From: Muribaculaceae bacterium
Lineage (GTDB): Bacteria > Bacteroidota > Bacteroidia > Bacteroidales > Muribaculaceae
Direction of reading: 5' to 3'
NCBI GenBank assembly: GCA_017409345.1
Contig: JAFQSX010000024.1
Location: 1 to 49,956 of the forward strand
Length of the DNA: 49,956 nucleotides
Part shown: positions 128 through 19,885 of the stretch, one piece after another
Numbering within the stretch: position 1 is the first letter of the stretch
Layout of the letters: each line of letters begins with the position of its first letter
Translations under genes and position numbers: made by a program
Notes under the pieces: generated by a model
The model's input: the letters and a program-made list of their open reading frames with translations, nothing else
What the model was told of the DNA's origin: nothing
Databases searched by the model: none

Positions 128-181
128 CAGTTGGCAACATTTTGTAGTCAACTGAAATAATTGCATCAACAGTCAAGAATT

Positions 182-625: not shown

Positions 626-657
626 TTCATAATTTAATGGATATAATTTGAATTAAG

Positions 658-873: not shown

Positions 874-904
874 TTAGAATCTGGATTTTCTCAATAGAAT
901 ATTT

Positions 905-1681: not shown

Positions 1682-1688
1682 AAAGAAT

Positions 1689-3491: not shown

Positions 3492-3506
3492 GATACGAAT
3501 TACTGT

Positions 3507-4664: not shown

Positions 4665-4682
4665 ATACTTATATAGTTAATT

Positions 4683-5237: not shown

Positions 5238-5249
5238 GTTGACATATAG

Positions 5250-5300
5250 TACGACCGCTTGCTTCCCAAGCTAATGAGTGGAGGGATAGAAGTTTTTTAA
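5250..5300 (+). pseudogene. Remnant of an hsdS 3' end
   Basis: Translation of this 51-bp stretch gives YDRLLPKLMSGGIEVF and a stop, closely matching the last codons of the intact hsdS (RDRLLPKLMNGEINV near 4614-4658). No start or upstream hsdS sequence is attached, because the membrane-protein gene ends 12 nt before it. The similarity also holds at the DNA level. This is best read as the cut-off tail of a second or former hsdS gene, and together with the intact copy it forms a direct repeat around the 184-aa membrane gene. Confidence 0.8.
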
Positions 5301-5315
5301 ATTATATATAATATT

Positions 5316-6393: not shown

Positions 6394-6443
6394 TAGTTTT
6401 AGTTTTGCAAATCGATACACGATAAATTTGATTTATAATATTT

Positions 6444-9400
6444 ATGTCAAAAGACTACAGCGAAGACCAATTGATACAGAAAAGTGCAGCCGATTTGTTG
6501 GAAAACGAACTCGGTTGGACCAGTGTGATGGCATGGGATGCAGAGGTACTTGGCGAAACAGGAACCTTGGGCAGAAAGAGCTATCACGAAGTATTGCTTG
6601 TGCGTCATTTCTGCAAGGCACTGAAGGCTCTGAATCCGTGGATGACGGAGAAGCAGTTGGCCGAAGCGGTAGAGCGGATGACAGAACGCATGAGCAGCCA
6701 GACCTTGATGCAAATCAACGAACAGAAATACCAATACATCAAGGATGGCATACCTGTAACACGCACCAAACCGAATGGTGAAACGGAAGAGGTGAAAGCC
6801 AAAGTGATAGACTTTGCCTCACCGGATAAGAACGAGTTTATGTGTGTGCGTGAGCTATGGGTATATGGTTCGCTGTATAGAAGAAGAGCCGATATTGTAG
6901 GCTTTGTCAATGGTATTCCGTTGCTGTTTATGGAGTTGAAAAACCACGACGTGGAAGTAGTGGATGCCTTTAACAATAATTATAGAGATTATTTAGATAC
7001 CATTTCACAGTTGTTCTATCACAATGCATTCATCATATTCAGTAATGGACTGGAAGCACGAGCAGGTACCATTGATTCGAAATGGGAATTCTTCCACGAA
7101 TGGAAGCGACTAAACGAATTAGAGGCTGGAAGCATAGAACTGCCTACCATGTTGCGAGGAATCTGTAAAAAAGAGAACTTCCTTGATTTGTTGGAGAACT
7201 TTATTCTTTACGACCACTCGGATGGTCACACGGTAAAGATTATGGCACGTAACCACCAATACTTGGGTGTAAACCAAGCCGTAGAAATGTATAAGAACCG
7301 TGAGTATATAAATGGAAAACTTGGTGTATTTTGGCATACACAAGGTAGTGGAAAAAGTTACTCCATGTTATTCTTAGCACAGAAAATACGTCGTAAGTTT
7401 GCCGGTTCGCCTACCATTGTGGTATTGACCGACCGTGAGGAACTGAACAAGCAGATTAGTGATACCTTCGAAAATTGCGGGATGCTAGGAAAAGTAAAGG
7501 CTTCCAAGTTTATCGCCCAAAGTGGTGAAGACTTGATAACTAAGCTTAAGGGAAATCCTTCGTTTATCTTCTCGCTGATACAGAAGTTCAACAAGCCAGA
7601 TGCAGAACCCATATATCCAGACCATGATATTGTGGTAATCAGTGACGAGGCGCATCGCACTCAGAACGGTATCTTTGCCGATAACTTGATGCATTTGTTG
7701 CCTACGGCCAATCGTATTGGTTTTACTGGAACTCCGTTGCTTTCAAATGACAATATTACGGCTCGTACATTTGGTGGTTATGTAAGTATCTATGACTTTA
7801 AACGCGCAGTAGAAGATAAGGCGACTGTTCCATTGTATTACGAAAACCGCGGTGAACGATTGCAAGATTTGCAGAATCCTAAAATCAATGAAGAAATAGC
7901 AACTACCCTAGAACAGGCTGGAGATATGGATGCATCGCAGTTAGCAAAACTGGAAAGAGAGTTTGCTAAGGAGGTACATTTATTGACTGCCCAAAAGCGT
8001 TTGCGCATTGTGGCAAAGGATTTTGTACGTCATTATAGTGATTTGTGGACCTCTGGAAAAGCTATGGTGGTAAGCTACAACAAAGTGACTTGCATACGGA
8101 TGTATGAGTATGTACAGGTATATTGGCAGAAGGAAATAGCTTCATTGGAAGGACAGATTGCGAAGTCTACTTCCCAACAAGAAGTGCAGGAACTGAACCG
8201 TAAACTCAAGTGGATGCAAGAGACGGAAATGGCGGTGGTAGTTTCGCAAGAACAAAACGAAATACAAACTTTCCAGAAATGGGGATTGGATATACTTCCA
8301 CACCGTGCCATGATGGAAAAGAGGGAACTGGATAAGGAATTCAAGGACAAAGATAACAAACTGAGAGTAGTGTTTGTCTGTGCTATGTGGCTTACAGGTT
8401 TTGATGTAAAGACACTTTCATGCTTATATATTGATAAACCGATGAAAGCACATACGTTGATGCAAACCATCGCTCGTGCCAACCGTGTAGCAGAAGGGAA
8501 AACCAATGGATTAATTATTGATTATATTGGAATCGTCAAAGCTCTTCGTCAAGCGTTGGCCGACTATACAGCAAATCCTGAAGGAGAAGGTGGAAATGAT
8601 CCAACGATAGATAAAAAAGAACTCATCAACCATGTTTATGAAACAATAGCAACGGCTACGGCATTTTTGAATGAGCATGAATTTGAGTTGATAAATTTGA
8701 TAGAAGCTGATAGTTTCTTTAAACTATCTTTATTGAAAGAAGCTGCCAATGCTATGTGTGCAACAGCAGAAATTAGAAAGATATATTGCACCTATGCAAC
8801 TACATTGCTAAAGTTATGGAAATACTTAGATCGTGAAGATATCACCCCAGAACTAAAACAGCAGAAAGATGCCATAGAAGCTATTTATAAGGAATTGCAA
8901 AAGAAACGTAAGCATGCCGACATTACAGATTTGAGCGTGGCTATTAATGAAATCGTGAACGAACATCTGCAAATTGATACTACCATTGTGGCAGAACCTG
9001 GTGTATCTCGTCAATTCGATATCAGTGGCATCAATTTCGATATATTAAGACGAGAGTTCGCCAAGAGTAAAGAGAAGAACTTAATCTTGAAAGATATCCA
9101 AGAGTTGTTGCAAGAGCGTATCGCGCAAATGTTGTCTCAGAATCCAATACGTGTCAATTTTTATGAAAGGTATCAAGAGATAATACATGAATATAATCAA
9201 GAGCAAAATCAAGTAAATATTGAACAGACTTTTGAGGATTTGATGCAACTTTCTACTCAGTTGACAGAAGAGGAGAAACGATATGTTCGAGAAGGTTTCG
9301 AGAATGATGAGCAACTTTCTATGTATGATGTACTGATGAAAGAAAATCTTTCAAAAGAGGATATTAAAAAACTAAAAAAGGTAGCTGTTGATTTATTGGC

Positions 9401-9590
9401 AAAAATTAAAGATTTAATAAAAACAATGGATCATCCTTTTGATAAGCGAGAAACAAAAGCAACTATAATTATTGCTATTCGTGATACATTGTGGAGTGAA
9501 CTGCCCGAAAGCTATTCAGATGAGAGCATTAACTATTATAAAGATGCTGTTTATAATTATGTTAGTCAACGATATGGTATGATGGCATAA
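6444..9590 (+). CDS. hsdR: Type I restriction endonuclease subunit HsdR
   Basis: HsdR is the ATP-driven translocase and nuclease of the type I complex, cutting DNA far from the recognition site. The 1048-aa product has the N-terminal PD-(D/E)xK nuclease (ADIVG with Asp near 150, then MELK near 163-166). The SF2 helicase motifs follow: Walker A TQGSGKS near 300, DEAH near 400, FTGTPL near 430, and QTIARANRV near 675. A helical C-terminal domain for HsdM/HsdS contact completes it. Length and motif order are normal and no frameshift is seen. It starts 50 nt after the HEPN-type gene. The C-terminal 250 residues have an A/T-richer code than the motor, a common pattern in this family. Confidence 0.97.
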   Translation: MSKDYSEDQLIQKSAADLLENELGWTSVMAWDAEVLGETGTLGRKSYHEVLLVRHFCKALKALNPWMTEKQLAEAVERMTERMSSQTLMQINEQKYQYIKDGIPVTRTKPNGETEEVKAKVIDFASPDKNEFMCVRELWVYGSLYRRRADIVGFVNGIPLLFMELKNHDVEVVDAFNNNYRDYLDTISQLFYHNAFIIFSNGLEARAGTIDSKWEFFHEWKRLNELEAGSIELPTMLRGICKKENFLDLLENFILYDHSDGHTVKIMARNHQYLGVNQAVEMYKNREYINGKLGVFWHTQGSGKSYSMLFLAQKIRRKFAGSPTIVVLTDREELNKQISDTFENCGMLGKVKASKFIAQSGEDLITKLKGNPSFIFSLIQKFNKPDAEPIYPDHDIVVISDEAHRTQNGIFADNLMHLLPTANRIGFTGTPLLSNDNITARTFGGYVSIYDFKRAVEDKATVPLYYENRGERLQDLQNPKINEEIATTLEQAGDMDASQLAKLEREFAKEVHLLTAQKRLRIVAKDFVRHYSDLWTSGKAMVVSYNKVTCIRMYEYVQVYWQKEIASLEGQIAKSTSQQEVQELNRKLKWMQETEMAVVVSQEQNEIQTFQKWGLDILPHRAMMEKRELDKEFKDKDNKLRVVFVCAMWLTGFDVKTLSCLYIDKPMKAHTLMQTIARANRVAEGKTNGLIIDYIGIVKALRQALADYTANPEGEGGNDPTIDKKELINHVYETIATATAFLNEHEFELINLIEADSFFKLSLLKEAANAMCATAEIRKIYCTYATTLLKLWKYLDREDITPELKQQKDAIEAIYKELQKKRKHADITDLSVAINEIVNEHLQIDTTIVAEPGVSRQFDISGINFDILRREFAKSKEKNLILKDIQELLQERIAQMLSQNPIRVNFYERYQEIIHEYNQEQNQVNIEQTFEDLMQLSTQLTEEEKRYVREGFENDEQLSMYDVLMKENLSKEDIKKLKKVAVDLLAKIKDLIKTMDHPFDKRETKATIIIAIRDTLWSELPESYSDESINYYKDAVYNYVSQRYGMMA

Positions 9591-9613
9591 AATAATATTG
9601 ATATATCTATATT

Positions 9614-9919
9614 ATGAATAAAGATAATAACACCCCAGAACTGCAATCCCCTTTCGAGCAGCTACGAACAGTGGATTCGGATGGCAAGGAATGGTGGAAC
9701 TCGCGTAAGTTGGCGCGAGTGATGGGCTATGGGAAGTATTGGAACTTCGAGCGTGTGATGGCAAAGGCTCAGGCTTGGGTAACACAGAAGGGTTATCATC
9801 TTGGAGAACACTTTATTTAATTTACTGAAATGGCTGAGTTATTTAAAATGACGTAGCAAAACATAAGTGATCATTTACAACTGATTGATGAGAGCGGACA
9901 AATGGGGCTCACATTCTAA
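9614..9919 (+). pseudogene. Broken dinD/rhuM-like gene
   Basis: The first 68 codons read like the start of DNA-damage-inducible protein D/BRO-type proteins: FEQLRTVDSDGKEWWNSRKLARVMGYGKYWNFE. The frame stops at TAA (9818-9820). Reading through in the same frame gives FTEMAELFKMT, a TAG stop, then QNISDHLQLIDESG, which resembles the HTH segment of RhuM-family proteins, before another stop at 9917-9919. Two in-frame stops and loss of everything downstream mark it as a decayed gene. DinD and RhuM genes are frequent passengers of Bacteroidetes type I restriction loci, which fits its place 23 nt after hsdR. Whether the 68-aa piece is still made is unknown. Confidence 0.65.
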
Positions 9920-9933
9920 GGTTACTTTAACCG

Positions 9934-10057
9934 CTACACATCAATCTCTTTCAGCGGTGCTCCATAGTTGCAGTGGCGTCCCATGAAGCCGCGTTTTATG
10001 CAAGGAAGGTTGAGCGTTTGGTAATACTTGTAGTCATCATCTTCGGTGCAGAGGTAT
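9934..10057 (-). pseudogene. Orphan 3' coding fragment, unidentified
   Basis: On the minus strand about 40 open codons end at TAG (9936-9934) and read YYQTLNLPCIKRGFMGRHC and NYGAPLKEIDV. The stretch looks protein-like but has no plausible start, and an in-frame stop lies upstream. I do not recognise the family. It may be the tail of a gene destroyed when the neighbouring islands were inserted, or chance. Confidence 0.25.
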
Positions 10058-10170
10058 TAAAATAGCACTCTTTATGAATGCTATTTTAATCAGTTATGAT
10101 TGATTTAAGCATTTATAATCAATGGCTTACTTTCCGATGCAGAAAGTAAACCTATCTGGTAATCAGATAG
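10057..10170. repeat. Run of four hairpins around the left att copy
   Basis: Four perfect inverted repeats lie within 114 bp: TTAAAATAGCA (10057-10067) with 10079-10089; ATTGATT (10099-10105) with 10117-10123; TTACTTTC (10127-10134) with GAAAGTAA (10142-10149); and CTATCTG (10152-10158) with 10164-10170. The third contains the mnmE-derived att core. The others could be recombinase or accessory-protein binding sites, or stems of a transcript; the sequence does not decide. Confidence 0.55.
10127..10144 (+). other. attL: Left att repeat (copy of the mnmE 3' end)
   Basis: TTACTTTCCGATGCAGAA matches the mnmE 3' terminus at 18488-18505 at 17 of 18 positions and in the same orientation. Read on the minus strand it spells the last MnmE codons, Phe-Cys-Ile-Gly-Lys-stop, with a synonymous Gly codon. 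There is no mnmE coding sequence beyond it, so it is an isolated att duplicate rather than a gene end. Together with the downstream 5 bases it forms 8-bp inverted arms around a 7-bp centre, the geometry of a tyrosine-recombinase core site. The left/right naming is arbitrary. Confidence 0.8.
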
Positions 10171-10444
10171 TTACAGACTTGTGGGTAAAATAAGGGAATC
10201 AATTGAGCCTTGCAATTGTGACTAATGGCGACTTCTCGTTTTTGCCACTTGGCGCCCTGATTCTGACACAAAGATAGTAATTTTTCATAGAAAATACGAG
10301 TTAAATTTTAGATAAATAATAACATAGCCCCCAAGACCATTTCACTTGTGGTCGATATGGTTATTGAGGGTTGTGAATGTCCACTTTCTATTGTAGAATG
10401 TTAACTTGTATACAGATTGAATACAACTGATTTTGAGAAAATGC

Positions 10445-10590
10445 AGTTGACTACAAATTGTAGTCAACTTGATAAAATTAGTAGTCGGTTAGCGAGACTA
10501 ACCAACAGACTGTTTTACCGAAGTGGTTAGTGTGGCTAACCACTTCGAAGGAGGCTATAAAAGAACAACTCGTGAGGTTCGCTCACGAGT
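10445..10590. repeat. Cluster of four palindromes related to the 103-156 repeats
   Basis: The elements are AGTTGACTACAA (10445-10456) with its complement at 10458-10469; GGTTAG (10487-10492) with CTAACC (10498-10503); CGAAGTGGTTAG (10519-10530) with 10536-10547 around a TGTGG loop; and ACTCGTGAG (10568-10576) with CTCACGAGT (10582-10590). The first shares 12 bases with 142-153, the third shares its loop with the 103-127 hairpin, and the last shares its arms with that hairpin. They look like copies of a small REP-like palindromic family, some possibly acting as terminators. Confidence 0.6.
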
Positions 10591-10631
10591 CGCTGAATTT
10601 AAGAGGTGTTATTTTAATTTGCCACTTTGTA

Positions 10632-10684
10632 TTTTGATTCTTTACAAGTCTTCTGGTTAAAATGTTCCTTGACAAGAATCAAAA
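10632..10684 (-). terminator. Inverted repeat downstream of the rloAB operon
   Basis: Arms TTTTGATTCTT (10632-10642) and AAGAATCAAAA (10674-10684) are perfect complements, with a shorter CAAG/CTTG stem inside. It lies about 45 nt beyond the stop of the last gene of the leftward operon and may end that transcript. No strong U-run follows on the minus strand, so the terminator call is tentative. Confidence 0.4.
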
Positions 10685-10727
10685 GGAGTTACCTAAACAG
10701 AGTACAATATTAGTAGGGTTGTTCGAA

Positions 10728-10964
10728 TTATAATAAGGTTTCAACTCCTAACTGGGTAAAATGCCAACCAGCAATTTTGCCATTATTGCAATCTTCAAAC
10801 GTAAGAAAACCTCGTTCCGCCAAATCATTCAGTAGTTCAGTTGCTTGCATCGGTGATATTTGAAGAACACAAGCCACCTGTTGTGGCATAATTATATCCC
10901 CGACATGTACCTCGTGATCAGTGCCCACACATGATAAAATTTCTTTTTCCATAAAATAAATCAT
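10728..10964 (-). CDS. Small winged-helix-like protein, third gene of the rloAB operon
   Basis: The 78-aa protein has a segment that reads like a winged helix: IIMPQQVACVLQISPMQATELLNDLAERGFLTFED, that is, a first helix, a turn, a recognition-like helix and the start of a wing, with GWHFTQLGVETLL as the tail. It begins 11 nt after the rloB-like gene and is probably co-transcribed. A role as operon regulator or DNA-sensing component is possible but not shown. Start: the ATG at 10964 has AGGA nine bases upstream; an in-frame ATG at 10952 is the alternative. I do not recognise a named family. Confidence 0.65.
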   Translation of the reverse strand: MIYFMEKEILSCVGTDHEVHVGDIIMPQQVACVLQISPMQATELLNDLAERGFLTFEDCNNGKIAGWHFTQLGVETLL

Positions 10965-10975
10965 TAACTAGTATC

Positions 10976-11689
10976 CTATTTAAAAATCTTATATACGAAT
11001 GAATAAGACTGGTTGTTTAATGTCTCATCTTTAATGGCATTTTTAATGTTAGTTTCGGCTCGTTGTATTGCTAATAATAATTTTTCATCCGCAATTAAAT
11101 TCTTAACCCATGTGGCATCTTTAAGATATTTCTCTCCCTTCAATAATTTCTTTAATTTAATTGTAGATATAGGAAAACATTTTTTAATATATGGGGCTAA
11201 ATGAGTTGATACCTTAGGATAGTTCTTTAATAAATCTGTGTAATTTTCAAAGTGTAAAAGAAACCAATATTCTATACATGGCATACTTTGGCAAATAATC
11301 ACTATTTCCTTAGATATCTCGCTTTTGAATTTATCTATAAAATCCTTATGTTTGCTTATTCTTGTTTTGTTCCCATATATTGTATCCCAATCAAATACAC
11401 AAAATATCTTAGCATCCGAATTGGCGGACAAAATTTCATTAATTCTTCTTGGGAAGGCATTAGTGTAATCTGATTCATCCGCAAAATACTCAGGTTTTAA
11501 ATTGAACTTGTACTCGGTTAGACTATTTATATGTTTGAAGTACCAACGTTCTGTATTTGATCCACCAGATATGATAAATGGGTGTAATGTCCCCATTTCT
11601 CTTGTGCCAACCTCTATGTCTGTTTGTGGATGAGGTGTATTCTCAAAATAACGTTGCTCAATAGGAGTTTCTAATTCTCGTGTCTTCAT
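10976..11689 (-). CDS. RloB-like protein (Toprim-type putative nuclease)
   Basis: The 237-aa protein fits the RloB family, a Toprim-like group named from genes linked to type I restriction loci in Campylobacter. It shows the strand-loop IISGGSNTERWYF near residues 38-50, an acidic pair in IFCVFDWDTIYGN near 94-106, and the family hallmark QSMPCIEYWFLLHFENY near 133-149. In the family the first loop usually carries a Toprim glutamate (EG-x-x-TE); here the first Glu is replaced by Gly and only the TE glutamate remains, which may weaken or shift the metal site. The start codon is 2 nt from the stop of the upstream ATPase gene, as in two-gene ATPase/Toprim defence modules. A defence role is inferred. 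Confidence 0.8.
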   Translation of the reverse strand: MKTRELETPIEQRYFENTPHPQTDIEVGTREMGTLHPFIISGGSNTERWYFKHINSLTEYKFNLKPEYFADESDYTNAFPRRINEILSANSDAKIFCVFDWDTIYGNKTRISKHKDFIDKFKSEISKEIVIICQSMPCIEYWFLLHFENYTDLLKNYPKVSTHLAPYIKKCFPISTIKLKKLLKGEKYLKDATWVKNLIADEKLLLAIQRAETNIKNAIKDETLNNQSYSFVYKIFK

Positions 11690-11691
11690 AA

Positions 11692-12981
11692 TTACTTCAT
11701 AGTTGCACCAAAACGCTTGTTCCTATATGCCTCCCTAATAGAAGATAGTCTATTTACCCCCCTGAAATCAGTTAGTTTATATATATCTGTAATACCATTC
11801 TCTTGCTTTTCGGTAAACCAAATAGAGTCTTTTCTTATTAAATCATCCGTTAGATCCAACAAACCATCGTCGTGAGTAGCAATTATTATTTGAGATCTTA
11901 TAGGAGTCTTAAGATACTCGTATAATACTTTTTCTAGTAACTTTGGGTGCAAGGAGGTTTCTATTTCATCAATAGGTAGAATGCCATTAATTTTCAAAAC
12001 AGAAAATAAAGCAGCCTCTAATCCAAAAATCCTCATTGTACCCCTAGATTCATCTTTTCCCAAAAAGGAGTATATTTCTTCTCCATTTTCATTTTTAACG
12101 GTATGTTGAAATAATGTTCTAAGTTGCTTCAACGTCTTTTCTTTCTTTATGCGCTCTTTCTCTTCTTTCGGGATGTCGTCATCTTCAAGAAGAACTTTAA
12201 TAGTGTCATCGGAGATGTGCTTGTCAACAATATCGGTAGAAATATTGGTCACATTAAAATCTGCCTCTTTAAGGAAAGTTAGTATATGGCCGACCAAATT
12301 AGAATCTGTAGATATTTTGCGCTGTGCATAATTTGTTAATCCAGTAGATGGGGTTATGGTTTGCATTATATTATTCCTTAACCAATCTTTTGCTGCATCT
12401 ATTAATGGTAAGCTAACATTCACTTGATTACGTGCAACAAAAAAAGATAGATTCTTCAAGCATTTGACATTGATTTCATCTCGTGCCGCATTGCTGACCA
12501 CATCTGCGTCTTTGTGAGTTGAATTAAAATGCACAATGGATTGTCCATCTTTTATAATTCTCTCAAAAAGCATTATTGGCTGAATACTTTTATAGTATGA
12601 AAGTTTTTCAAAATGGACCGATTGGCTATCTAGTTTTAACTGATATAGATATTTTACATTTCCCACATAAAATATAATATCAAAACAAGATAAATTGGTG
12701 TTTGATACTTGATCTAGTTTAAATGGGATCACTCCAGTACCTTCATCTAAATCTTCTGGCTTGTAGCTCCAAAATTGAGATAAGAAACTGAATACACTTA
12801 ATAAATTGGTTTTACCAGACGCATTATATCCATACAAAATAGCATACCGGAGTAATCTTGTATTTTCATTGATTTGTATTACCTGGCAATCTTCTGCAAA
12901 TTTGTCATTTGATGCCTCAAAACTAAATGTTACCTCATCTTTAAAAGATAGAAAGTTTTTTATTTTAATTTCCTGTATCAT
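11692..12981 (-). CDS. AAA/ABC-type ATPase, RloA-like (AAA_21)
   Basis: The 429-aa ATPase has the SMC/RecF-like N terminus IQEIKIKNFLSFKDEVTFSF, Walker A YGYNASGKTNLL near residues 50-61, and Walker B GILPIDEIETSLHP near 335-349. An H-loop-like histidine lies in IIIATHDDGLL. This is the AAA_21 group that pairs with Toprim or RloB effectors in OLD, PARIS and RloAB-type systems, where the ATPase senses a phage product and releases the nuclease. It is the first gene of a leftward operon with rloB and the small winged-helix gene. A -7-like TATATTTG (minus strand, 13010-13003) lies 22 nt upstream. The exact phage trigger cannot be inferred. Confidence 0.88.
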   Translation of the reverse strand: MIQEIKIKNFLSFKDEVTFSFEASNDKFAEDCQVIQINENTRLLRYAILYGYNASGKTNLLSVFSFLSQFWSYKPEDLDEGTGVIPFKLDQVSNTNLSCFDIIFYVGNVKYLYQLKLDSQSVHFEKLSYYKSIQPIMLFERIIKDGQSIVHFNSTHKDADVVSNAARDEINVKCLKNLSFFVARNQVNVSLPLIDAAKDWLRNNIMQTITPSTGLTNYAQRKISTDSNLVGHILTFLKEADFNVTNISTDIVDKHISDDTIKVLLEDDDIPKEEKERIKKEKTLKQLRTLFQHTVKNENGEEIYSFLGKDESRGTMRIFGLEAALFSVLKINGILPIDEIETSLHPKLLEKVLYEYLKTPIRSQIIIATHDDGLLDLTDDLIRKDSIWFTEKQENGITDIYKLTDFRGVNRLSSIREAYRNKRFGATMK

Positions 12982-13002
12982 ATGTTATATATTTTGCTTG
13001 TG

Positions 13003-13010
13003 CAAATATA
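13003..13010 (-). promoter_or_regulatory. -7 element upstream of the rloAB operon
   Basis: On the minus strand TATATTTG matches the Bacteroidetes -7 box and would start transcription only about 15 nt before the ATPase ATG. No good TTTG -33 box is found at the usual 19-21 nt distance, so the promoter may be weak or regulated. Confidence 0.4.
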
Positions 13011-13101
13011 GTAAATAAAATCTATTTAATTCTAATATTTTGCAATTATTATGCAAATTGGCGATATAAAACATAATTAACCATGTTTTTAATTCAATAA
13101 T

Positions 13102-13122
13102 TCACACCATTTCATGGTATGA
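13102..13122. promoter_or_regulatory. Operator-like palindrome between divergent operons
   Basis: TCACACCAT (13102-13110) and ATGGTATGA (13114-13122) are complementary at 8 of 9 positions around TTC. It lies between the leftward rloAB operon and the rightward type II RM operon, 25 bp upstream of a -7-like box, a plausible site for a dimeric regulator. Which protein would bind is unknown. Confidence 0.35.
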
Positions 13123-13146
13123 TATCCATTATTGCAAAATATTTAC

Positions 13147-13248
13147 TATCTTTGAGCAGCAAAACGAACTAAAAACCGATAAACAAGACAAAAAGCACAA
13201 GAAGAATAGTATAACATACATATATAAAATAAGTTAGTATTAACTTTG
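13147..13248 (+). promoter_or_regulatory. Two candidate promoters of the type II RM operon
   Basis: TATCTTTG (13147-13154) and TAACTTTG (13241-13248) both match the TAnnTTTG -7 consensus; the second is identical to the -7 box of the type I operon. Neither has an ideal TTTG -33 box. Use of the second would start the RNA close to 13254, exactly where the long nested hairpin begins. Use of the first adds about 95 nt of A-rich leader. Confidence 0.45.
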
Positions 13249-13255
13249 GTTCTCG

Positions 13256-13452
13256 CTTACTGAAACCTAGGAAATTTCAAATTTAGCGAAGGGAATAAAA
13301 GTTGGTGCTCACGCTTTATGGCGTGGGCTTTTATTCCATTTATTCGCTAAAGGCTTTCCTAGGGCCGCAGTAAGATAAATTCGAATAAGTCCGCGCTTTT
13401 TTGTGCCCTTATTCGAACGCATAGTCGAAGTTAATCTATCCCAAACTTCGAC
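13256..13452 (+). ncRNA. Highly structured leader of the type II RM operon
   Basis: Three consecutive hairpins fill the space before the methyltransferase ATG. The first is a nested stem from 13256 to 13374. Its five helices pair 13256-13262 with 13368-13374, 13266-13274 with 13355-13363, 13282-13290 with 13343-13351, 13292-13301 with 13328-13337, and 13310-13314 with 13321-13325. Each is perfect, and together they give about 40 bp. Its tip alone (GCTCACGC, loop, GCGTGGGC, TTTTATT) looks like an intrinsic terminator. The second pairs TTCGAATAAG (13380-13389) with 13408-13417. The third pairs GTCGAAGTT (13424-13432) with AACTTCGAC (13444-13452), ending 3 nt before the ATG. An attenuator or translational switch is inferred; no known riboswitch class is recognised. 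Confidence 0.6.
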
Positions 13453-13455
13453 AAT

Positions 13456-14493
13456 ATGCAAGACTCCAAATACACATTCATAGATCTTTTCTCCGGTTGT
13501 GGAGGGCTGTCGCTCGGATTCGAGATGGCTGGTTATAAGTCGCTATTGGCGATTGATAACTGGCAAGATGCTCTTGATACATACAAGCATAACAACCCTG
13601 ATGCTCGCACTCTCTGTGGCGATCTATCTAAAATTAATCCCGAAGATATTAAGCGAGAATATAACATCGACCGAGTGAGCGCCATTATTGGTGGCCCTCC
13701 GTGTCAAGGCTTCTCAATTGCAGGTAAGCGCATCATTGATGATGAACGAAACAAACTTTACAAATCATTTGTCAGCTTTGTTAGATGCTTTATGCCAGAT
13801 GCCTTTGTGATGGAGAATGTGCCAAACATTCTCTCTATTGGCGATGGCGTTGTTAAGGAATCAATCATCAAGGATTTTAGTGATATAGGTTATAATGTTA
13901 ACTACAAGATCTTGCTTGCCTCAGACTATGGCGTTCCACAAAATCGCCGAAGAGCCGTATTCGTGGGGTTGAAGAATGGCTGCTTCTCATTCCCAACGCC
14001 CACAAGTACCACTCCTATAACTACTGAAGAAGCGTTGTCAGACTTGCCTGATAATAGTGTAGCTGATGGCGAAGCATATCCGTTGCCAGCACAAAGCGCT
14101 TACCAACAGATGATGCGCAGAGGTGTCGAGACCTTGCATAACCATCAAGCGACAATCCACACCGAGCAGACAGCACGCATTATTGCGATGGTGCCAGATG
14201 GAGGTAACTATAAAGATTTACCTAAAGAACTTCAACAAACCCGCAAGGTAAATATTGCATGGACTCGCCTAAATAGCAAGAAACCAAGCATTACTATTGA
14301 TACTGGACATAACCATCATTTTCATTATTTGTATAATCGTGTTCCTACTGCTCGTGAGAGCGCTCGACTGCAATCATTTCCGGATTCATTTGTATTTACG
14401 CATGGCAAAACCAGTCAATTAAAACAGATTGGTAATGCTGTCCCTCCATTGATGGCTATGGAGATTGCAAAACAATTAAAGATACAGATATGA
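13456..14493 (+). CDS. DNA (cytosine-5)-methyltransferase, first of two
   Basis: The 345-aa enzyme transfers methyl groups to C5 of cytosine. The ordered C5 motifs are visible: I FIDLFSGCGGLSLG near residues 8-21, IV GGPPCQGFS near 78-86 with the catalytic Cys, and VI MENV near 118-121. Motif VIII QNRRR is near 161, and IX/X RLQSFPD then GNAVPP are near 310 and 325. The target-recognition region between VIII and IX is short. The gene leads a three-gene type II restriction-modification operon: its TGA overlaps the endonuclease ATG by 4 nt. Translation may be controlled by the hairpin ending 3 nt before its ATG. Two methyltransferases in one system suggest an asymmetric target needing one enzyme per strand; this is inference. 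Confidence 0.95.
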   Translation: MQDSKYTFIDLFSGCGGLSLGFEMAGYKSLLAIDNWQDALDTYKHNNPDARTLCGDLSKINPEDIKREYNIDRVSAIIGGPPCQGFSIAGKRIIDDERNKLYKSFVSFVRCFMPDAFVMENVPNILSIGDGVVKESIIKDFSDIGYNVNYKILLASDYGVPQNRRRAVFVGLKNGCFSFPTPTSTTPITTEEALSDLPDNSVADGEAYPLPAQSAYQQMMRRGVETLHNHQATIHTEQTARIIAMVPDGGNYKDLPKELQQTRKVNIAWTRLNSKKPSITIDTGHNHHFHYLYNRVPTARESARLQSFPDSFVFTHGKTSQLKQIGNAVPPLMAMEIAKQLKIQI

Positions 14494-15911
14494 GCTACAA
14501 CCCAGACAACCAATACCGATGTACTATAATTAGAGGTAAAAGTCAAACACAAATGGAAGACTTATTACCTCTGTACGCCAATATGGTACATAGATTATGT
14601 CCTTGCACAGAAAATGAATTTAATGAGCGAGGCAATAAGTTCCTATCAAAAGCTTTATTCGGTACTGACTGCTATGAGATACTACCTAATAGCAATCAAA
14701 AGACTGTAAGGAATCACCTTACGGAAATTGCTGGAACTTTGCTCGCATTATATCGCATTGATCTGGATGGCTATGTATATGAGACAGAGTTGTGTTCATA
14801 TCTACTTGATAAGAACGATTTTCCCGCATTCTTCCGCAATATATGTTTAAATTTTCAATTCCCAAATGGAACGAAGAAATCTAATTTTGTATTGCAAGAT
14901 GTAGCCAATAGAATAAATATAAAGCCTTTTTGTTTTGTTGTTTCGTTACTCTACTATGCTCAACAACAGCCACACAAACATCTTCTAACAAAACAAGAGA
15001 TTGGGTATTATGTTCTTAATAATTTAGAAGTGCTACAAGGTAGAGTCAGTGTTGAAACTGTGTATCATAAAATAATCGAAGATAGAGTAAATGGAGCGCA
15101 TAAACCTCAGTTGTCAGGCTCTCACGATTGGCAACATATTAAAGAGCAGTTTAACTTATTAGAGTTAGCAAATATAGTACATACAGATAGAACATATATT
15201 TGGCTTAACAAAGAAGAGGCATTGTCGATAGAGGTGTTTGTTAGATCTCTGAATGAATCTACATTTGATGTATATGCCTATAATCTGTCTTCTCTTGATG
15301 GAAGAAAACAATTTTACGCCGATTGGGAAGAGTATTATGGCAGATTGAATCCTGATTTGGCGATGCTACCTACTAAATTCCAGAACGCAACAGAGATTGT
15401 TATTGCCGACAGAGTGGAACAAACTGCTCAACGAGGAGCTGTTGGTGCGACTACAATAGAGGTGGGAGATAAGGGTGAAGCATTAGTGTACAATCTCGAA
15501 AAAGAACGAGTTGGGAACTACAAAGCAAGGTTAGTTAACAAGGTCCTATTGTTAGGCAAAACAAAGGGCCTTGGATATGACATTAGTTCAATCGAGGCTG
15601 ATGAGAATCCCGACAAACCTGAATTTGCACGATATATTGAGGTTAAATCTACCACGCGAGTTACAGAGCCGTCATTTGATGATAACTGGACCGATTCGCT
15701 CAATTTAACATCCAAAGAGTGGGTGGCTGCGGAACAGTATAAAGAGTACTATAACATATACAGAGTATACTTTACAAAACAGAGAACTTTTGTTGTAAGA
15801 ATCAAGAATCCATATGAGTTGGCAACACAAGATTTAATCGAGGTATATCCAACAACTTATCAAATGAATTTTAATGACAAAGTAATAGAACATCGTTATG
15901 CCGGAGAATAA
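14490..15911 (+). CDS. Putative type II restriction endonuclease with DUF3883 domain
   Basis: The 473-aa protein lies between two C5 methyltransferases and overlaps both (4 and 14 nt), the position of the cognate nuclease. The C-terminal 150 residues match DUF3883, a PD-(D/E)xK-type fold: VGDKGEALVYNLEKERVG (Glu in the first helix), LGYDISSIE near 360-368, then RYIEVKSTTR near 380-389, giving the D-x(n)-ExK active site. The N-terminal 300 residues (EIAGTLLALYRIDLDGYV, LNFQFPNGTKKSN) probably recognise DNA; I do not match them to a named enzyme, although the QFP-containing segment faintly recalls AlwI-like enzymes. The recognition sequence cannot be read from the sequence. Confidence 0.85.
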   Translation: MSYNPDNQYRCTIIRGKSQTQMEDLLPLYANMVHRLCPCTENEFNERGNKFLSKALFGTDCYEILPNSNQKTVRNHLTEIAGTLLALYRIDLDGYVYETELCSYLLDKNDFPAFFRNICLNFQFPNGTKKSNFVLQDVANRINIKPFCFVVSLLYYAQQQPHKHLLTKQEIGYYVLNNLEVLQGRVSVETVYHKIIEDRVNGAHKPQLSGSHDWQHIKEQFNLLELANIVHTDRTYIWLNKEEALSIEVFVRSLNESTFDVYAYNLSSLDGRKQFYADWEEYYGRLNPDLAMLPTKFQNATEIVIADRVEQTAQRGAVGATTIEVGDKGEALVYNLEKERVGNYKARLVNKVLLLGKTKGLGYDISSIEADENPDKPEFARYIEVKSTTRVTEPSFDDNWTDSLNLTSKEWVAAEQYKEYYNIYRVYFTKQRTFVVRIKNPYELATQDLIEVYPTTYQMNFNDKVIEHRYAGE

Positions 15912-16860
15912 AATAAGGGTTGCCTCGCTCTTTTGTGGTTGTGGTGGTTCGGATTTAGGTTTATTAGGAGGTTTTAAGTATCTTGGCAAACACTATAAAA
16001 GATTGCCATTTGAGATTGTGTACGCAATCGACAACGACAAATATGCAGTTGAAACATATAATGCTAATTTCGAGCATCCTGCCGTATGTGAAGATATAAC
16101 GAAAGTGGACTTTGCAGATGTCCCCGATGTTGATATGATGATTGGGGGCTTCCCATGTCAATCGTTTAGCACTGTGAATCCAACTAAAGATACTAACGAT
16201 GCTCGTGCAAACTTGTATAAAGAGATTGTTCGTTTCTTGCAAGAAAAACAACCGAAGTATTTTATCTGCGAGAATGTAAAGGGCTTGCTAACCCTGCAGA
16301 AGGGGGCTATTATTCAAAAGATAGTAAAGGAGTTCACAGAGTGTGGGTATAATATTCAATATAAACTTATCAAGGCTGTCGAGTATGGTATACCTCAAAG
16401 ACGAGAACGAGTTATTATTGTCGGAATCAGAAAAGACATTAATTTAAGCTACTTGTTCCCTGATTCTATATGCACAGAAAATAATGCAGTACCATTGCGA
16501 AAAGTTATTGATAGACTCGATATTGAAGAACAAAAGTATTATTTTTCTCAAAAGGCAGTTCAGGGCGTAAAAAATGCTAAAAACAATATGAAGAGAGGTC
16601 TTTGGCAAGATCTAAATGCTCCTTGCTTAACTTTAACTTCCCATTTGGCAAAGGTTAGTATGAACTCTCGCGATCCGATTTTATTGGTCGATGCTAATGA
16701 GGAGTTGTATCGACGCTTTACTCCTCGTGAGGCAGCACGTATCCAATCTTTCCCAGATACATTTAAGTTGCATCCATCAGAGGCAAAGTCGTATAAACAA
16801 ATTGGCAACGCAATCCCTCCTGTTATGATGTGGTATATAGCACGCAACTTGATAAAATAG
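15898..16860 (+). CDS. DNA (cytosine-5)-methyltransferase, second of two
   Basis: The 320-aa enzyme carries the C5 motifs: I VASLFCGCGGSDLG near residues 8-21, IV GGFPCQSFS near 83-91 with catalytic Cys, VI ENVKG near 124, VIII QRRER near 163, IX RIQSFPD near 280, and X GNAIPP near 302. It is not a recent copy of the first methyltransferase, because motif I and the target region differ clearly. Its start overlaps the endonuclease gene by 14 nt, so the three proteins are translationally coupled. The usual reading is that each methyltransferase protects one strand of an asymmetric target. A strong terminator follows 15 nt after the stop. Confidence 0.95.
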   Translation: MPENKIRVASLFCGCGGSDLGLLGGFKYLGKHYKRLPFEIVYAIDNDKYAVETYNANFEHPAVCEDITKVDFADVPDVDMMIGGFPCQSFSTVNPTKDTNDARANLYKEIVRFLQEKQPKYFICENVKGLLTLQKGAIIQKIVKEFTECGYNIQYKLIKAVEYGIPQRRERVIIVGIRKDINLSYLFPDSICTENNAVPLRKVIDRLDIEEQKYYFSQKAVQGVKNAKNNMKRGLWQDLNAPCLTLTSHLAKVSMNSRDPILLVDANEELYRRFTPREAARIQSFPDTFKLHPSEAKSYKQIGNAIPPVMMWYIARNLIK

Positions 16861-16875
16861 CAGAGAGATATTATA

Positions 16876-16905
16876 ATAGAGTCCGCTGTGTTCAGCGGAC
16901 TCTAT
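16876..16905. terminator. Terminator of the type II RM operon
   Basis: A 13-bp perfect stem pairs ATAGAGTCCGCTG (16876-16888) with 16893-16905 around a 4-nt loop, followed by a moderately T-rich stretch. It closes the rightward operon and, from the other side, could also stop the leftward small-gene operon ending at 16920. Confidence 0.75.
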
Positions 16906-16919
16906 CGTTGCGTTTTCTA

Positions 16920-17141
16920 TTATCCCTTTGGAGGATAAGGATCGTTGCCATAGCTATGCTTATCTCGAATCTGACCATCTCTTCCGTGTATGAGAAGTTC
17001 GGATTTTTGATTAATTGCTATCTCTCTTGCTCGATTAATCGCAGCCCGCTGCGTATCGAAATTCTGGGTGTTGCGAGTATTGTTCTCACCTCGTACACCC
17101 CAACCATCTTTGGTTTTAACCACATGCTGATTTTTGCCCAT
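16920..17141 (-). CDS. DUF2188 domain protein
   Basis: The 73-aa protein fits DUF2188: QHVVKTKDGWGVRGENN at the start, FDTQRAAINRAREIAINQ in the middle, and LLIHGRDGQIRDKHSYGNDP at the end, with the YPPKG tail. The family is small and its function is unknown. The ATG at 17141 is chosen because the conserved domain begins three residues later; a longer frame from 17180 would overlap the upstream gene and add 13 unrelated residues. The ATG lies directly beside the stop of the Cys-rich gene upstream, so the two are probably one transcript. Confidence 0.85.
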   Translation of the reverse strand: MGKNQHVVKTKDGWGVRGENNTRNTQNFDTQRAAINRAREIAINQKSELLIHGRDGQIRDKHSYGNDPYPPKG

Positions 17142-17143
17142 AG

Positions 17144-17350
17144 TTACTTCTTGTGGCAGGCAGGGCAGCAGTAAGCACAACCATCAACATTGTAATAATG
17201 CTTTCTAGCCTCTTTTACTGCATCTGCACAATTGTTAAACACTCCTAAATATCTTCTATTCTCCATAGAGGGTAGAAAAATACACGTTGAGGTGTGGACC
17301 TCATGCTCTCCACTTGGTTGAGCATTTTTATTTACATAATATGTTGCCAT
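17144..17350 (-). CDS. Small Cys-rich hypothetical protein paired with DUF2188
   Basis: This 68-aa protein begins MATYYVNKNAQPSGEHEVH and ends with a cluster of cysteines (GCAYCCPACHKK), plus one Cys in STCIFLP and one in NNCADAV. The CxxC-like arrangement could bind a metal. I recall similar small proteins next to DUF2188 genes in mobile regions, but no function is known to me. It is the first gene of a two-gene leftward unit. Confidence 0.65.
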   Translation of the reverse strand: MATYYVNKNAQPSGEHEVHTSTCIFLPSMENRRYLGVFNNCADAVKEARKHYYNVDGCAYCCPACHKK

Positions 17351-17403
17351 ACTTTATATTGTTTTAATGATGGCTTGTGCGGCATAAAACTTGTACCACG
17401 ATG

Positions 17404-17700
17404 TTGTGGATTTTGAGACGAATTGCTATATTTGCACCGCTAAAATGAAACATATGTGTTATTTCACACCCCATAGCCATCGTTTTTCAGGGTTTGGCAA
17501 TCCGCCATCTCTTTAATCATTGTCAAGTTATCTCATAAGCATCACCTCCATTCTATATACAATTAATAAATAAGCGATTTCTGTATACACAATAGGTGTG
17601 CCAGTGGGTATTTTTAGGACAAATTGAAGATTTTGGCAGTCTTTAGATGCAAATAACTGACACAATGGCAGAAGAGCTAGGATAACCTAGCTCTTTTTTG
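17404..17700 (+). ncRNA. Candidate small RNA between minus-strand genes
   Basis: On the + strand a promoter-like pair (TTG near 17404-17406, 20-nt gap, TATATTTG at 17427-17434) is followed about 240 nt later by a textbook intrinsic terminator at 17672-17699. The neighbouring genes on both sides point the other way, so neither signal serves them. No substantial reading frame lies between; the best is a 23-codon frame at 17445-17516 with no recognisable content. A transcript of about 255 nt is predicted. Confidence 0.4.
17672..17699 (+). terminator. Intrinsic terminator, + strand
   Basis: AAGAGCTAGG (17672-17681) and CCTAGCTCTT (17686-17695) form a perfect 10-bp stem with a 4-nt loop and run into a six-T tract. 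No + strand gene precedes it, which is the reason to suspect an RNA gene upstream. Confidence 0.8.
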
Positions 17701-17716
17701 TCATTATCAACAAAGA

Positions 17717-17740
17717 AAAAGGCGACCGAAGTCGCCTTTT
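17717..17740 (-). terminator. Terminator of the HTH gene
   Basis: AAAAGGCGAC and GTCGCCTTTT pair around a 4-nt tetraloop. Read on the minus strand the stem is followed by a T-run, placing a strong intrinsic terminator about 30 nt beyond the stop of the leftward HTH gene. Confidence 0.85.
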
Positions 17741-17771
17741 CAATCTTAGTCTAATTCATCAAACCGCTTTA

Positions 17772-18155
17772 CTATCGTCGATTTCGGTAGCGCCACGGAT
17801 CGGGAGTCATAAACTTTTCGAACTCTTCCATATTGGTGATACACTCGATATTTTGTTTCTTTTCGAGCCATTTCTTGATGGTTGGTCGATCGAAATACAA
17901 TCGGTTACCCTGGCGGATAAACGGAATGTCGTGACACCTCACCGTTCGGTACACTGCAGATTTGGATTTACCAAGCAGCTTGCAAACATCCTCCACGCTC
18001 ATCAGCTCCCCTTCGAGTGGCTGTGGTTGCTGCTTCTCGCGAACTGTCTTTTCGAGTACTTCAATTCTCTCTACCAGATTTTGAATGAGCTCTGGCATCT
18101 GCTCAAATGATACAACTTTAGCTTCCATTTTGTTATTGTTTTTAAGTGAATTCAT
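17772..18155 (-). CDS. Excisionase-like helix-turn-helix (HTH_17) protein
   Basis: The 127-aa protein has an N-terminal coiled-coil-like helix (PELIQNLVERIEVLEKTVRE, about residues 20-39). A MerR/excisionase-type HTH follows at about 50-95: LMSVEDVCKLLGKSKSAVYR, then a wing DIPFIRQGNRLYFDRPTIKKWLEKK. Such proteins are usual in Bacteroidetes mobile elements, where they direct excision or control element genes. It is the last gene before the mnmE junction, and five phased 10-bp repeats lie 130-180 bp upstream of it, a natural binding target. The start could also be the ATG at 18128, which has a typical A-rich leader. No integrase is next to it, so its recombinase partner must be elsewhere. Confidence 0.8.
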   Translation of the reverse strand: MNSLKNNNKMEAKVVSFEQMPELIQNLVERIEVLEKTVREKQQPQPLEGELMSVEDVCKLLGKSKSAVYRTVRCHDIPFIRQGNRLYFDRPTIKKWLEKKQNIECITNMEEFEKFMTPDPWRYRNRR

Positions 18156-18288
18156 ATTAAGAGTAGAGGGGGAGTTAGTAATAAGGTTTATGAATTAGTG
18201 ATTTTTTTGCAAAAAAAAGTTGTTAACGACTTTCGTCGCCGACAACCATTGCCTTTTTAGTAGAAAGTACAATTCTCTTCGCCCTGTT

Positions 18289-18338
18289 ATTGCAGCTCGT
18301 TGCACTCCATTGCACCTCATTGCACACCATTGCAAACT
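18289..18338 (+). repeat. Five tandem 10-bp repeats (TTGCA iterons)
   Basis: Five consecutive 10-bp units begin at 18289, 18299, 18309, 18319 and 18329. All contain TTGCA at the same place, and the middle units read GTTGCACTCC, ATTGCACCTC and ATTGCACACC. The 10-bp period puts every copy on the same face of the helix, as expected for cooperative binding of a small protein such as an excisionase. Confidence 0.75.
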
Positions 18339-18376
18339 TGGCGAGATATTTTTATTGAAGACATTAAGGCATAGAA

Positions 18377-18410
18377 AAATCCCGAAAGTCGAGTCTAACT
18401 TTCGGGATTT
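18377..18410. terminator. Bidirectional terminator downstream of mnmE
   Basis: A perfect 13-bp stem pairs AAATCCCGAAAGT (18377-18389) with 18398-18410, flanked by A-rich and T-rich tracts on either side. It would end the leftward mnmE transcript about 80 nt past its stop. Confidence 0.75.
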
Positions 18411-18450
18411 ATTCGTCTATTTTTGTAGGATTTTCTGTTGCTTTTTGTGA

Positions 18451-18487
18451 GCGTTAGCGTTTAGTAGTGTGCATTAGAGGGCGTTAG
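18451..18487 (+). repeat. Spaced GCGTTAG repeats beside the right att copy
   Basis: GCGTTAG occurs at 18451-18457 and 18481-18487, with GCATTAG at 18471-18477 and a partial copy at 18457. The spacings of 20 and 10 bp are again helical. The last copy directly abuts the att repeat, so these may be recombinase or accessory-protein sites. Confidence 0.4.
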
Positions 18488-18505
18488 TTACTTCCCGATG
18501 CAGAA
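18488..18505 (+). other. attR: Right att repeat inside the mnmE 3' end
   Basis: TTACTTCCCGATGCAGAA is the reverse complement of the last six codons of mnmE (Phe-Cys-Ile-Gly-Lys-stop). It repeats the sequence at 10127-10144 with one mismatch and in the same orientation. The 3' end of mnmE (trmE) is the known insertion site of SGI1-family islands in Enterobacteriaceae, which makes an attachment site the best explanation. Confidence 0.8.
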
Positions 18506-19879
18506 GCGGGAGAATATTGAGGTGAGGATATCTTGGGTGGTGATGGTGCCGGTGATTTCGCCGAGGTGGTGGAGGGTTTCGCGTACGTCTTGGGCTATGA
18601 AGTCGCCAGAAATGCCCATGTTTATTCCGTCGATGGCGCGTGCTATCGATTCGCCGGCGCGTGTGAGTGCTTGATAGTGGCGTGCGTTGGTTACCATCAC
18701 TTCGCCGGGGGCTATGTCGGCACTGCCCGATGCGTTGATGAGGTGTTGTTGCAGTGCGTCAATCTCGTCGCCTCGTTGTGCCGAAATTGGAGCTACAATG
18801 GCTCCTTCGGGGAGTATTCCCATAAGTGCCGACTGCAATGCTTCGACGTTCTCGGCGTTGATGTCGATTTTGTTGAGTGCCACGATGATTGTTTGGTCGG
18901 GCGAGGTGTGAGGTAATACGCGTTGAGCCACCGATGAGAGTTGGCCTGGTGTGGTTGCACTATCGATCACCCACAACACTATGCGAGCGTCGGTGAGTTT
19001 GCTAATGGTGCGTTCGATGCCGAGCGATTCAATCACGTCGGTTGTTTCGCGTAGTCCGGCAGTGTCGATGAAGCGGAAAAGAGTGTCGCCAATTTCGATA
19101 GTGTCTTCAATCACGTCGCGAGTGGTGCCGTGAATGTCGCTAACGATTGCACGTTCTTCGTGAAGCAGTCGGTTGAGCAAGGTTGATTTGCCGGCATTTG
19201 TTTCGCCCACGATAGCCACAGGCACACCGTCTTTGATGGCTGCTCCGGTGGCAAAGGTTGATGCCAATCGGGTAACGACCGAGTGAATTTCTTGTGCTAT
19301 CTCAAGGAGTTTCTGACGAGAGGCAAACTCCACATCCTCTTCCGAGAAATCAAGCTCAAGCTCAAGCAAAGAGGCGAGGTTGAGCAGTTGGTCGTGAAGG
19401 TCGGTCAATCGGCGTGAGAAGTCGCCACGCATCTGGCTCATGGCAATGCGATGAGCGGCACGCGATGATGATGCGATTACGTCGGCCACGGCTTCGGCTT
19501 CGGCAAGGTCCATGCGACCATTGGCAAAGGCACGACGTGTAAACTCGCCGGCATCGGCAATGCGACAGCCGGTGCGTACGAGCAGGTTAATAAGTTCGCG
19601 TTGCACCCAACGAGAGCCATGCACGGCAATCTCTACCACATTTTCGCCGGTAAATGAGTGGGGGTTGCGAAACACCGTTGCCACGGCTTGGTCAATGGCT
19701 TCGCCTTGCTCGTCGACGATGGTGCCGAGGTGGGCAGTGTGCGAATCGGCATTGGATAGCGATTTCCCTTTCCATATTTTATCAACAAGCGTGATGGCGT
19801 CTTTTCCACTCACACGAGCCACGGCAATGCCTCCCACACCGGCAGGAGTGGAGATGGCGCATATAGTATCATCGGTCAT
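18488..19879 (-). CDS. mnmE: tRNA uridine-5-carboxymethylaminomethyl modification GTPase MnmE
   Basis: MnmE works with MnmG to build the cmnm5 group on wobble uridine 34 of several tRNAs. The product of about 463 aa has the N-terminal folate-binding domain (TICAISTPAGVGGIAVARVSG). A helical domain follows, then a G domain with GETNAGKST near 225, the switch region GTTRDVIED, DTAGLRE and NKID, and the terminal FCIGK whose Cys is conserved in the family. The ATG at 19879 gives the usual MTDDTICA start; one two codons upstream is possible. Its 3' end doubles as the right border of the adjacent island, and the gene remains intact. A TATCTTTG -7-like box lies on the minus strand at 19946-19939. 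Confidence 0.97.
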   Translation of the reverse strand: MTDDTICAISTPAGVGGIAVARVSGKDAITLVDKIWKGKSLSNADSHTAHLGTIVDEQGEAIDQAVATVFRNPHSFTGENVVEIAVHGSRWVQRELINLLVRTGCRIADAGEFTRRAFANGRMDLAEAEAVADVIASSSRAAHRIAMSQMRGDFSRRLTDLHDQLLNLASLLELELDFSEEDVEFASRQKLLEIAQEIHSVVTRLASTFATGAAIKDGVPVAIVGETNAGKSTLLNRLLHEERAIVSDIHGTTRDVIEDTIEIGDTLFRFIDTAGLRETTDVIESLGIERTISKLTDARIVLWVIDSATTPGQLSSVAQRVLPHTSPDQTIIVALNKIDINAENVEALQSALMGILPEGAIVAPISAQRGDEIDALQQHLINASGSADIAPGEVMVTNARHYQALTRAGESIARAIDGINMGISGDFIAQDVRETLHHLGEITGTITTQDILTSIFSRFCIGK

Positions 19880-19885
19880 TATCAT

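Follow-up and report, generated by a model that had tools for sequence, protein, structure and literature searches.

Integrase-less defence islands in putative tandem at the 3′ end of mnmE in a Muribaculaceae genome

Cis-mobilizable elements (CIMEs), according to PMC5704250, keep an attachment (att) site on both sides after their integration and transfer genes are gone, and arrays of elements arise by successive insertion (accretion) at one att site. SGI1 integrates with its own integrase in the last 18 bp of thdF (mnmE/trmE); a secondary site and tandem arrays are also known for it (PMC2297512, PMC5704250), and islands that target trmE are known in Gammaproteobacteria (PMC2297512, PMC5704250, PMC8409611). 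Gut Bacteroidales carry integrative and conjugative elements (ICEs) at tRNA genes or at loosely defined sites, and a GA2b ICE lies in tandem with another ICE at one site (PMC8102008); a tandem of two ICEs in gut Bacteroidales is also described in PMC6907783. No paper on a Bacteroidota element at mnmE, trmE or thdF was present among the matches listed in open-licence literature. Here, the mnmE locus of a Muribaculaceae bacterium was analysed on a stretch of 49,956 nucleotides (the window), which is the whole of contig C20 of the bacterium's own genome (G000) and begins with base 1 of that contig. The 3′ end of mnmE in the window likely borders a tandem array of at least two defence islands without an integrase, which were probably moved in trans by mnmE-specific integrases of ICEs or of integrative and mobilizable elements (IMEs).

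The island next to mnmE (island 1) resembles a CIME because an att copy of the integration site lies at each of its ends and it is without integration and transfer genes, according to a hidden Markov model (HMM) search for integrases and the lack of a relaxase among its matched families. An origin by deletion of an ICE or IME is supported for the second island (island 2) by a scar; for island 1, the one hint of it is the helix-turn-helix (HTH) gene. The locus differs from the described CIMEs in its Bacteroidales host, its mnmE target, its defence cargo and the recurrence of the integrase-less shell with different cargo, and the mnmE islands are regarded here as a new variant of CIME accretion. 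Like SGI1, island 1 is inserted at the 3′ end of trmE/mnmE. Unlike SGI1, it gave no integrase in the HMM search, and no SGI1 backbone or mobilisation gene, SGI1 being judged by its description, was named among the families that its genes matched; moreover, the likely helpers here are the HTH–integrase IMEs and ICEs of Bacteroidales. The IMEs of the NBU/Tn4555 type in Bacteroidales are known by their gene order. The IME after mnmE in a near relative (G001) is similar to them in its integrase, HTH_17, DUF3987, PG0870-related, MbpA-like and relaxase genes; it differs in its target, mnmE, and the window islands retain only an HTH_17 protein and a scar. An IME has its own integrase and its own relaxase, and both were present in the G001 neighbour; neither was found in the window islands. 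IMEs of the NBU/Tn4555 kind are named in PMC5704250. The tandem ICEs of Bacteroidales are comparable in that two elements share one site, but those are ICEs (at tRNA genes in PMC8102008), whereas the elements here are integrase-less islands at a protein gene.

The repeated mnmE end and its boundary in near relatives

The target gene mnmE (18488–19885, minus strand) is an intact open reading frame (ORF) of 465 aa. Its last 18 bases, TTC TGC ATC GGG AAG TAA, comprise five codons and the stop (FCIGK stop) and constitute the mnmE-proximal att copy 1 (TTCTGCATCGGGAAGTAA, 18488–18505, minus strand). The repeat search located att copy 2 (TTCTGCATCGGAAAGTAA, 10127–10144, minus strand) in the same orientation with 17 of 18 bases identical, and the sole change, GGG/GGA, is synonymous; this copy is read as a displaced mnmE end. 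The span between the two repeats is 8,343 bp (10145–18487). At up to three mismatches, the 18-mer had two matches in the window, mnmE itself included, against an expectation of 0.10. The Markov expectation at up to one mismatch was approximately 1e-4 per window and 0.004 per genome, whereas the degenerate 18-mer had five such matches in the 2.09-Mb own assembly, three of them without any mismatch (10127, 18488 and C34:7196–7213), and the reversed control had none. The repeat, which the sequence-only reading had described with the same identity and synonymous change, is confirmed by this recount as real and far above chance; a chance repeat was rejected on the observed and expected counts. The own assembly is a draft of 38 contigs that is 75% complete, which is the one point in favour of chance similarity or an assembly artefact. 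Such an origin is highly improbable given the expectation of 1e-4 per window, the position of the island 1 proximal arm directly after mnmE in G005 as well, and the identical deletion scar on another own contig and in G001.

The boundary at mnmE is evident from a comparison with G001 and G004, in which mnmE is 99% identical to that of the window in protein and 95–96% in DNA, and which match the window only up to the 18-mer. In G001, mnmE is followed by an IME with genes for a protein with four HTH_17 stretches, a tyrosine recombinase, an HTH protein and DUF3987, PG0870-related, MbpA-like and relaxase proteins. In G004, it is followed by a helicase and a DRT3 pair among other genes. Since the two relatives and the window diverge at the 18-mer, a different sequence follows each of these three near-identical mnmE genes. 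In another genome, a 29-residue piece with 93% identity to the C-terminus of the window HTH protein lies downstream of mnmE without the window arm (G002:C78:333–419).

The mnmE 3′ end as an integration site and its crossover core

A search of 149 family genomes (cut-off E ≤ 1e-100) found mnmE in 132 of them. Contig ends lay within 500 bp of the mnmE 3′ end in 25 of 64 minus-strand matches and within the same distance of the 5′ end in none of 53 plus-strand matches (Fisher p 2.2e-8). This count covered 117 of the 134 mnmE rows; the 17 left out were partial, and 16 of these were short of the C-terminus. When two partial plus-strand rows (G054 and G092), which start at contig base 2, already inside mnmE, were added, the 5′-side count was 2/55 (p 1.8e-6). 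The downstream census comprised 94 mnmE ends after three loci were dropped (two duplicates and one without the gene end); it includes the alternative contigs of G065 and G133 and is not a random draw, as many contigs that end right after mnmE are not included. At least 3 kb of downstream sequence was available for 44 of the 94 ends, and a tyrosine recombinase of one family was present within 6 kb in 28 of the 44, fragments of 84, 227 and 262 aa included; the window was represented among the 44 by an HTH family gene only. The residues R233, K261, H315, R318, H341 and Y350 were invariant in the 24 rows of the integrase alignment. The R-K-H-R-H-Y set is the catalytic motif of tyrosine recombinases. 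On these sequence comparisons, the mnmE 3′ end is a hotspot for mobile elements in Muribaculaceae.

The use of this site by integrase-bearing elements extends over many Bacteroidales. Among the 80 best of 555 GTDB relatives of the integrase, a selection biased towards the query, 59 sit 1.0–1.5 kb after mnmE in the same orientation, and the strict 11-bp core occurs in 54 of these 59; with a plasmid-collection record added, mnmE was upstream in 60 of 82 loci. The record titles of the loci after mnmE include Bacteroides, Parabacteroides, Alistipes, Segatella, Porphyromonas, Dysgonomonas, Marinifilum, Draconibacterium and others, and one is labelled Roseburia, perhaps through a binning error. Seven of the 21 GTDB loci without mnmE upstream were inspected, and relaxed cores were found at the expected distance in some. 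In the 12 genus genomes, 25 matches to the core pattern were counted, among them G003:C13, G004:C63, G004:C74, G008:C17, G008:C27:353, G009:C118, G011:C88 and G000:C7. The plasmid-collection record NZ_OY725936.1 (L200, Bacteroides finegoldii 'plasmid 34') contains floA, mnmE and an IME after mnmE, and looks like a chromosomal piece or an alternative haplotype. The plasmid pBUN2 of B. uniformis was considered as an excised circle and rejected, as no close core was found at the expected place before its HTH–integrase pair.

Two pairs of contigs represent the site before and after an insertion. Around mnmE in G065 (genus g13), chromosome and contig C2 are the same apart from an insert of 59 kb at the 3′ end, and in G133 (genus g6) the chromosome and contig C3 likewise differ by a 59-kb insert at mnmE; the two contig versions may correspond to cells with and without the ICE. 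The inserted ICE was 99.9–100% identical between the two genomes over the pieces compared. The core is duplicated at both insertions, and in G065, 14 bases (TTCTGCATCGGAAA) were common to all junctions. In G133, base 12 is C in the chromosome and A in the element, and after insertion the junction next to mnmE has the A and the far junction the C. Hence, the differing bases at the junctions of G065 and G133 confine the exchange to an 11-bp core, TTCTGCATCGG. In both genomes the ICE separates mnmE from a resident HTH–integrase element, whose integrase is truncated in G065, so that the compared contigs show accretion beside mnmE, by which the older att has been moved outward. The same accretion would explain the copy at 18488 as the newer att and that at 10127 as the older one. 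That two genera share this ICE at mnmE, both alongside a chromosome version that is free of it (G065:C2 and G133:C3; L070, L072, L155–L157 and L161–L163), suggests recent inter-genus transfer or activity.

The recurring shell of island 1, the second island and the rival accounts

The mnmE-proximal arm of island 1 (18210–18487, minus strand), which contains a hairpin, was searched in 397 family genomes and found in five, the own genome included: a copy in G005 (87%), two in G010 (88% and 84%), a 113-bp piece in G004 and a 77-bp piece in G050. The arm aligned at 88–90% with the G005 copy and both G010 copies. The G005 copy lies after mnmE, with a second att-like copy 1.7 kb further on and a single 384-aa gene in between. 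In G010:C8, a 9.8-kb unit between two att-like copies consists of the arm (88%), the conserved HTH gene, a distal arm and a cargo that comprises a methyltransferase/HNH system together with DUF5131 and Fic genes; this unit gave no integrase. It is followed by a relative of the nuclease gene found next to mnmE in the window and by genes which, from their translations, we take to be ordinary chromosomal ones. No mnmE was detected in G010 at E ≤ 1e-100, despite a listed assembly completeness of 99% and the presence of both the att-bounded island and this relative of the nuclease gene that usually lies next to mnmE. G010:C24 has a copy of the arm, together with an HTH protein of 98% identity, at a degenerate core without mnmE, and the flank of this copy is present in G002, 86% identical up to the insertion point, with no element there (one side compared).

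The distal arms also recur. Those of G010 and G004:C56 are 78% identical, and local blast matches of the window distal arm (10145–10645, minus strand), whose similarity to the distal arms of G010:C8 and G004:C56 is patchy, reached 81–83%. Further distal arms end at core copies and then differ (G004:C59 and G010:C8, 92% over 178 bp; C34 and G005:C159, 88–91%). Since like ends and a like HTH gene occur with other cargo and no integrase in another species, island 1 looks, on these alignments, like an established integrase-less element type. The conserved arms with differing interiors are also what would be expected if cargo were exchanged by homologous recombination via the arms and mnmE, with no site-specific recombinase in the last events. 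This account is quite unlikely; the G010:C24 copy sits at a degenerate core without mnmE, and the ICE events at the mnmE site are precise within the core.

The region to the left of att copy 2 belongs to a second element. An integrase-proximal arm of the mnmE-IME type with a stem-loop (10059–10126, minus strand), which forms the start of island 2, was recognized by sequence comparison, and the final 40 codons of the IME terminal gene (9935–10056, minus strand) are fused directly to it in a deletion scar. The 68-bp arm together with att copy 2 is about 80–83% identical to the sequence after mnmE in G001, G007 and G008. The junction of arm and terminal gene is common to three loci (the window, C34:7196 and G001:C19:1053), and the terminal gene is complete in G001:C18. 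The genes behind the scar differ: the window has a type I restriction–modification (RM) operon there, C34 an HNH gene among others, and G001 genes that we take, from their translations, to be transposase-like. The two scar copies of the own genome are 85% identical, and the island 2 shell therefore looks old. G007 is without the integrase and retains part of the relaxase gene and the terminal gene; it looks like an intermediate in the deletion series of the mnmE-IME. Base 10127 is thus the start of a second island, which these comparisons describe as a deleted IME shell with type I RM cargo. A chromosomal origin of the sequence left of 10127 was rejected on account of the IME arm, the terminal-gene tail and the type I RM genes there.

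The proposed array can be described as follows. Island 1 would consist of a conserved proximal arm, a small HTH_17 gene, a related distal arm and variable anti-phage cargo, with neither integrase nor relaxase found, and island 2 would start with an IME shell, left after an mnmE-targeting element lost its mobility module, with the arm and the terminal-gene tail retained and a type I RM operon as cargo. A tyrosine recombinase from intact IMEs or ICEs at mnmE would recombine the 11-bp core, and a new arrival would enter between mnmE and the older element and restore the last codons of mnmE. The HTH protein would probably act as a directionality factor or regulator, and an integrase acting in trans would have moved island 1. 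In a rival account of simple decay, island 1 came in as a normal IME that had an integrase gene of its own, which was later lost in this lineage; it would be a classical CIME and would now be immobile. The deletion series of the mnmE-IME (whole in G001, partial in G007, and scars in the window, C34 and G001:C19) agrees with such decay, and decayed elements in tandem are described in PMC5704250. Simple decay is nevertheless unlikely, because G010 has integrase-less units with like ends and the HTH gene but other cargo, both between att-like copies and at a degenerate core, and several integrase-less units with different cargo make one recent loss of integrase insufficient.

Several points weigh against a tandem array moved in trans. 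No excision or transfer has been observed for the integrase-less islands, and the own genome, at 75% completeness, gave no integrase of the mnmE family and only one distant tyrosine-recombinase match. Neither family, integrase or HTH, was represented in 15 of the 44 mnmE ends. Arms that recombine by homology could shuffle cargo as well. The window distal arm is 58% identical overall to that of G010:C8 and 61% to that of G004:C56, the similarity lying in near-identical blocks, and the match to the core is poor in some att-like copies (9 of 11 bases at the distal ends in G010:C8 and G004:C56, 8 of 11 at G010:C24). Moreover, the empty site in G002 is a one-sided comparison, G010:C24 starting inside the HTH gene. 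The array to the left of base 1 is unseen, and its link to C34 is putative.

The sequence-only reading had placed an insertion at the mnmE 3′ end, and its proposal is borne out by the divergence of near-identical relatives at the 18-mer, by the occupied and unoccupied ICE pairs with their duplicated core, and by the like units in G010:C8 and in G010:C24 against the G002 flank. Its suggestion that a Bacteroidales element uses the SGI1-type target holds for the target, with no kinship to SGI1 implied. It had taken 10127 as the outer island edge and missed the border with the deleted-IME island. Its choice between mobilisation in trans and a lost integrase can now be sharpened by the recurring integrase-less type with other cargo in G010, with mobilisation in trans as the probable route.

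On a broader scale, we lean slightly towards a Bacteroidales class of integrase-less shells, made up of two arms, the 11-bp core and sometimes one HTH_17 gene, which would capture changing defence genes, move only by the integrases of mnmE-targeting IMEs and ICEs and stack at mnmE; this would constitute a parasitic, order-wide site of defence shuffling outside tRNA genes. The fixed protein-gene target, the mapped core, a family of integrases downstream of mnmE across many Bacteroidales and recurrent non-autonomous islands whose cargo differs give a checkable account of how gut Bacteroidales may stack and swap anti-phage systems. The mnmE site may also help to define the exact limits of islands and to search for new defence genes.

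Gene content of the islands and neighbouring loci

The island 1 gene next to mnmE (17772–18155, minus strand) encodes a 127-aa protein with an HTH_17/'excise' domain, a candidate directionality factor by its domain match. It is followed by a 68-aa ORF without a Pfam or PADLOC match (17144–17350, minus) and by a DUF2188 protein that matches the PADLOC candidate PDC-S16 (16920–17180, minus). A type II restriction endonuclease with BpuJI_N and NOV_C domains (14490–15911, plus; Pfam 3e-53, PADLOC REase_II 2.3e-103) is flanked by two C5 cytosine methyltransferases (13456–14493, plus, Pfam 2.5e-73 and PADLOC MTase_II; 15898–16860, plus, Pfam 3.1e-79), and the three genes form a type II RM operon. 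An AbiLi-like AAA ATPase (11692–12981, minus; PADLOC AbiLi 4.9e-65, Pfam AAA_21 1.1e-32), an AbiLii-like RloB protein (10976–11689, minus; PADLOC AbiLii 3e-18, Pfam RloB 1.5e-21) and a 78-aa ORF without a Pfam or PADLOC match (10728–10964, minus) precede the distal arm. No integrase was found in six-frame translations of 10145–18487 or 1–10126 with an HMM built from mnmE-associated integrases, which detected the control IME of G001, and no relaxase was among the Pfam and PADLOC families matched by the island 1 ORFs. The first list of genes read from the sequence (an AAA-ATPase/RloB module, a type II RM operon, small genes and an excisionase-like HTH gene, with no integrase between the repeats) agrees with these matches. 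The DNA of the RM operon had partial matches (66–70%) in seven of 396 other family genomes, and no recent transfer of this cargo was therefore seen.

In island 2, the type I RM operon (1641–9590, plus; PADLOC MTase_I 4.2e-268, Specificity_I 4.4e-67 and REase_I 2e-154) comprises hsdM (1641–3491), hsdS (3507–4664) and hsdR (6444–9590), with other ORFs between. A gene that matches the PADLOC candidate PDC-S31 (905–1681) overlaps the start of hsdM. The palindromes at 102–153 resemble those at 10444–10590, and the left end of the window might accordingly be a further distal arm, but such hairpins are common. With AbiL, type II RM and type I RM side by side according to PADLOC, the window locus qualifies as a defence island by gene family, and the function of its cargo is assigned by family; these are family matches, and the cargo itself showed nothing unusual.

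Contig C34 of the own genome contains att copy, arm and tail and, further on, cydAB. In G001, the cyd cluster is opposite in orientation to the like att copy, and in G006, cydA is on the 5′ side of mnmE. With cyd placed in these ways, C34 is only a possible far flank of the array. The names of chromosomal neighbours (upp, uracil permease and cydAB) were read from the translations. The cydAB cluster was found near att-like copies and other variable genes in G000:C34, G001:C19 and G004:C59, in differing orientations. In C34 (L066, 1029–11804), helicase-like, Fic, HNH and DUF5131-type genes, the last assigned by similarity to G010:C8, lie on both sides of the third att copy and are further candidate defence genes. 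The 105 bases at 49816–49920 of the window recur without change, and in the same orientation, at the right end of C34, and this repeat probably ended both contigs.

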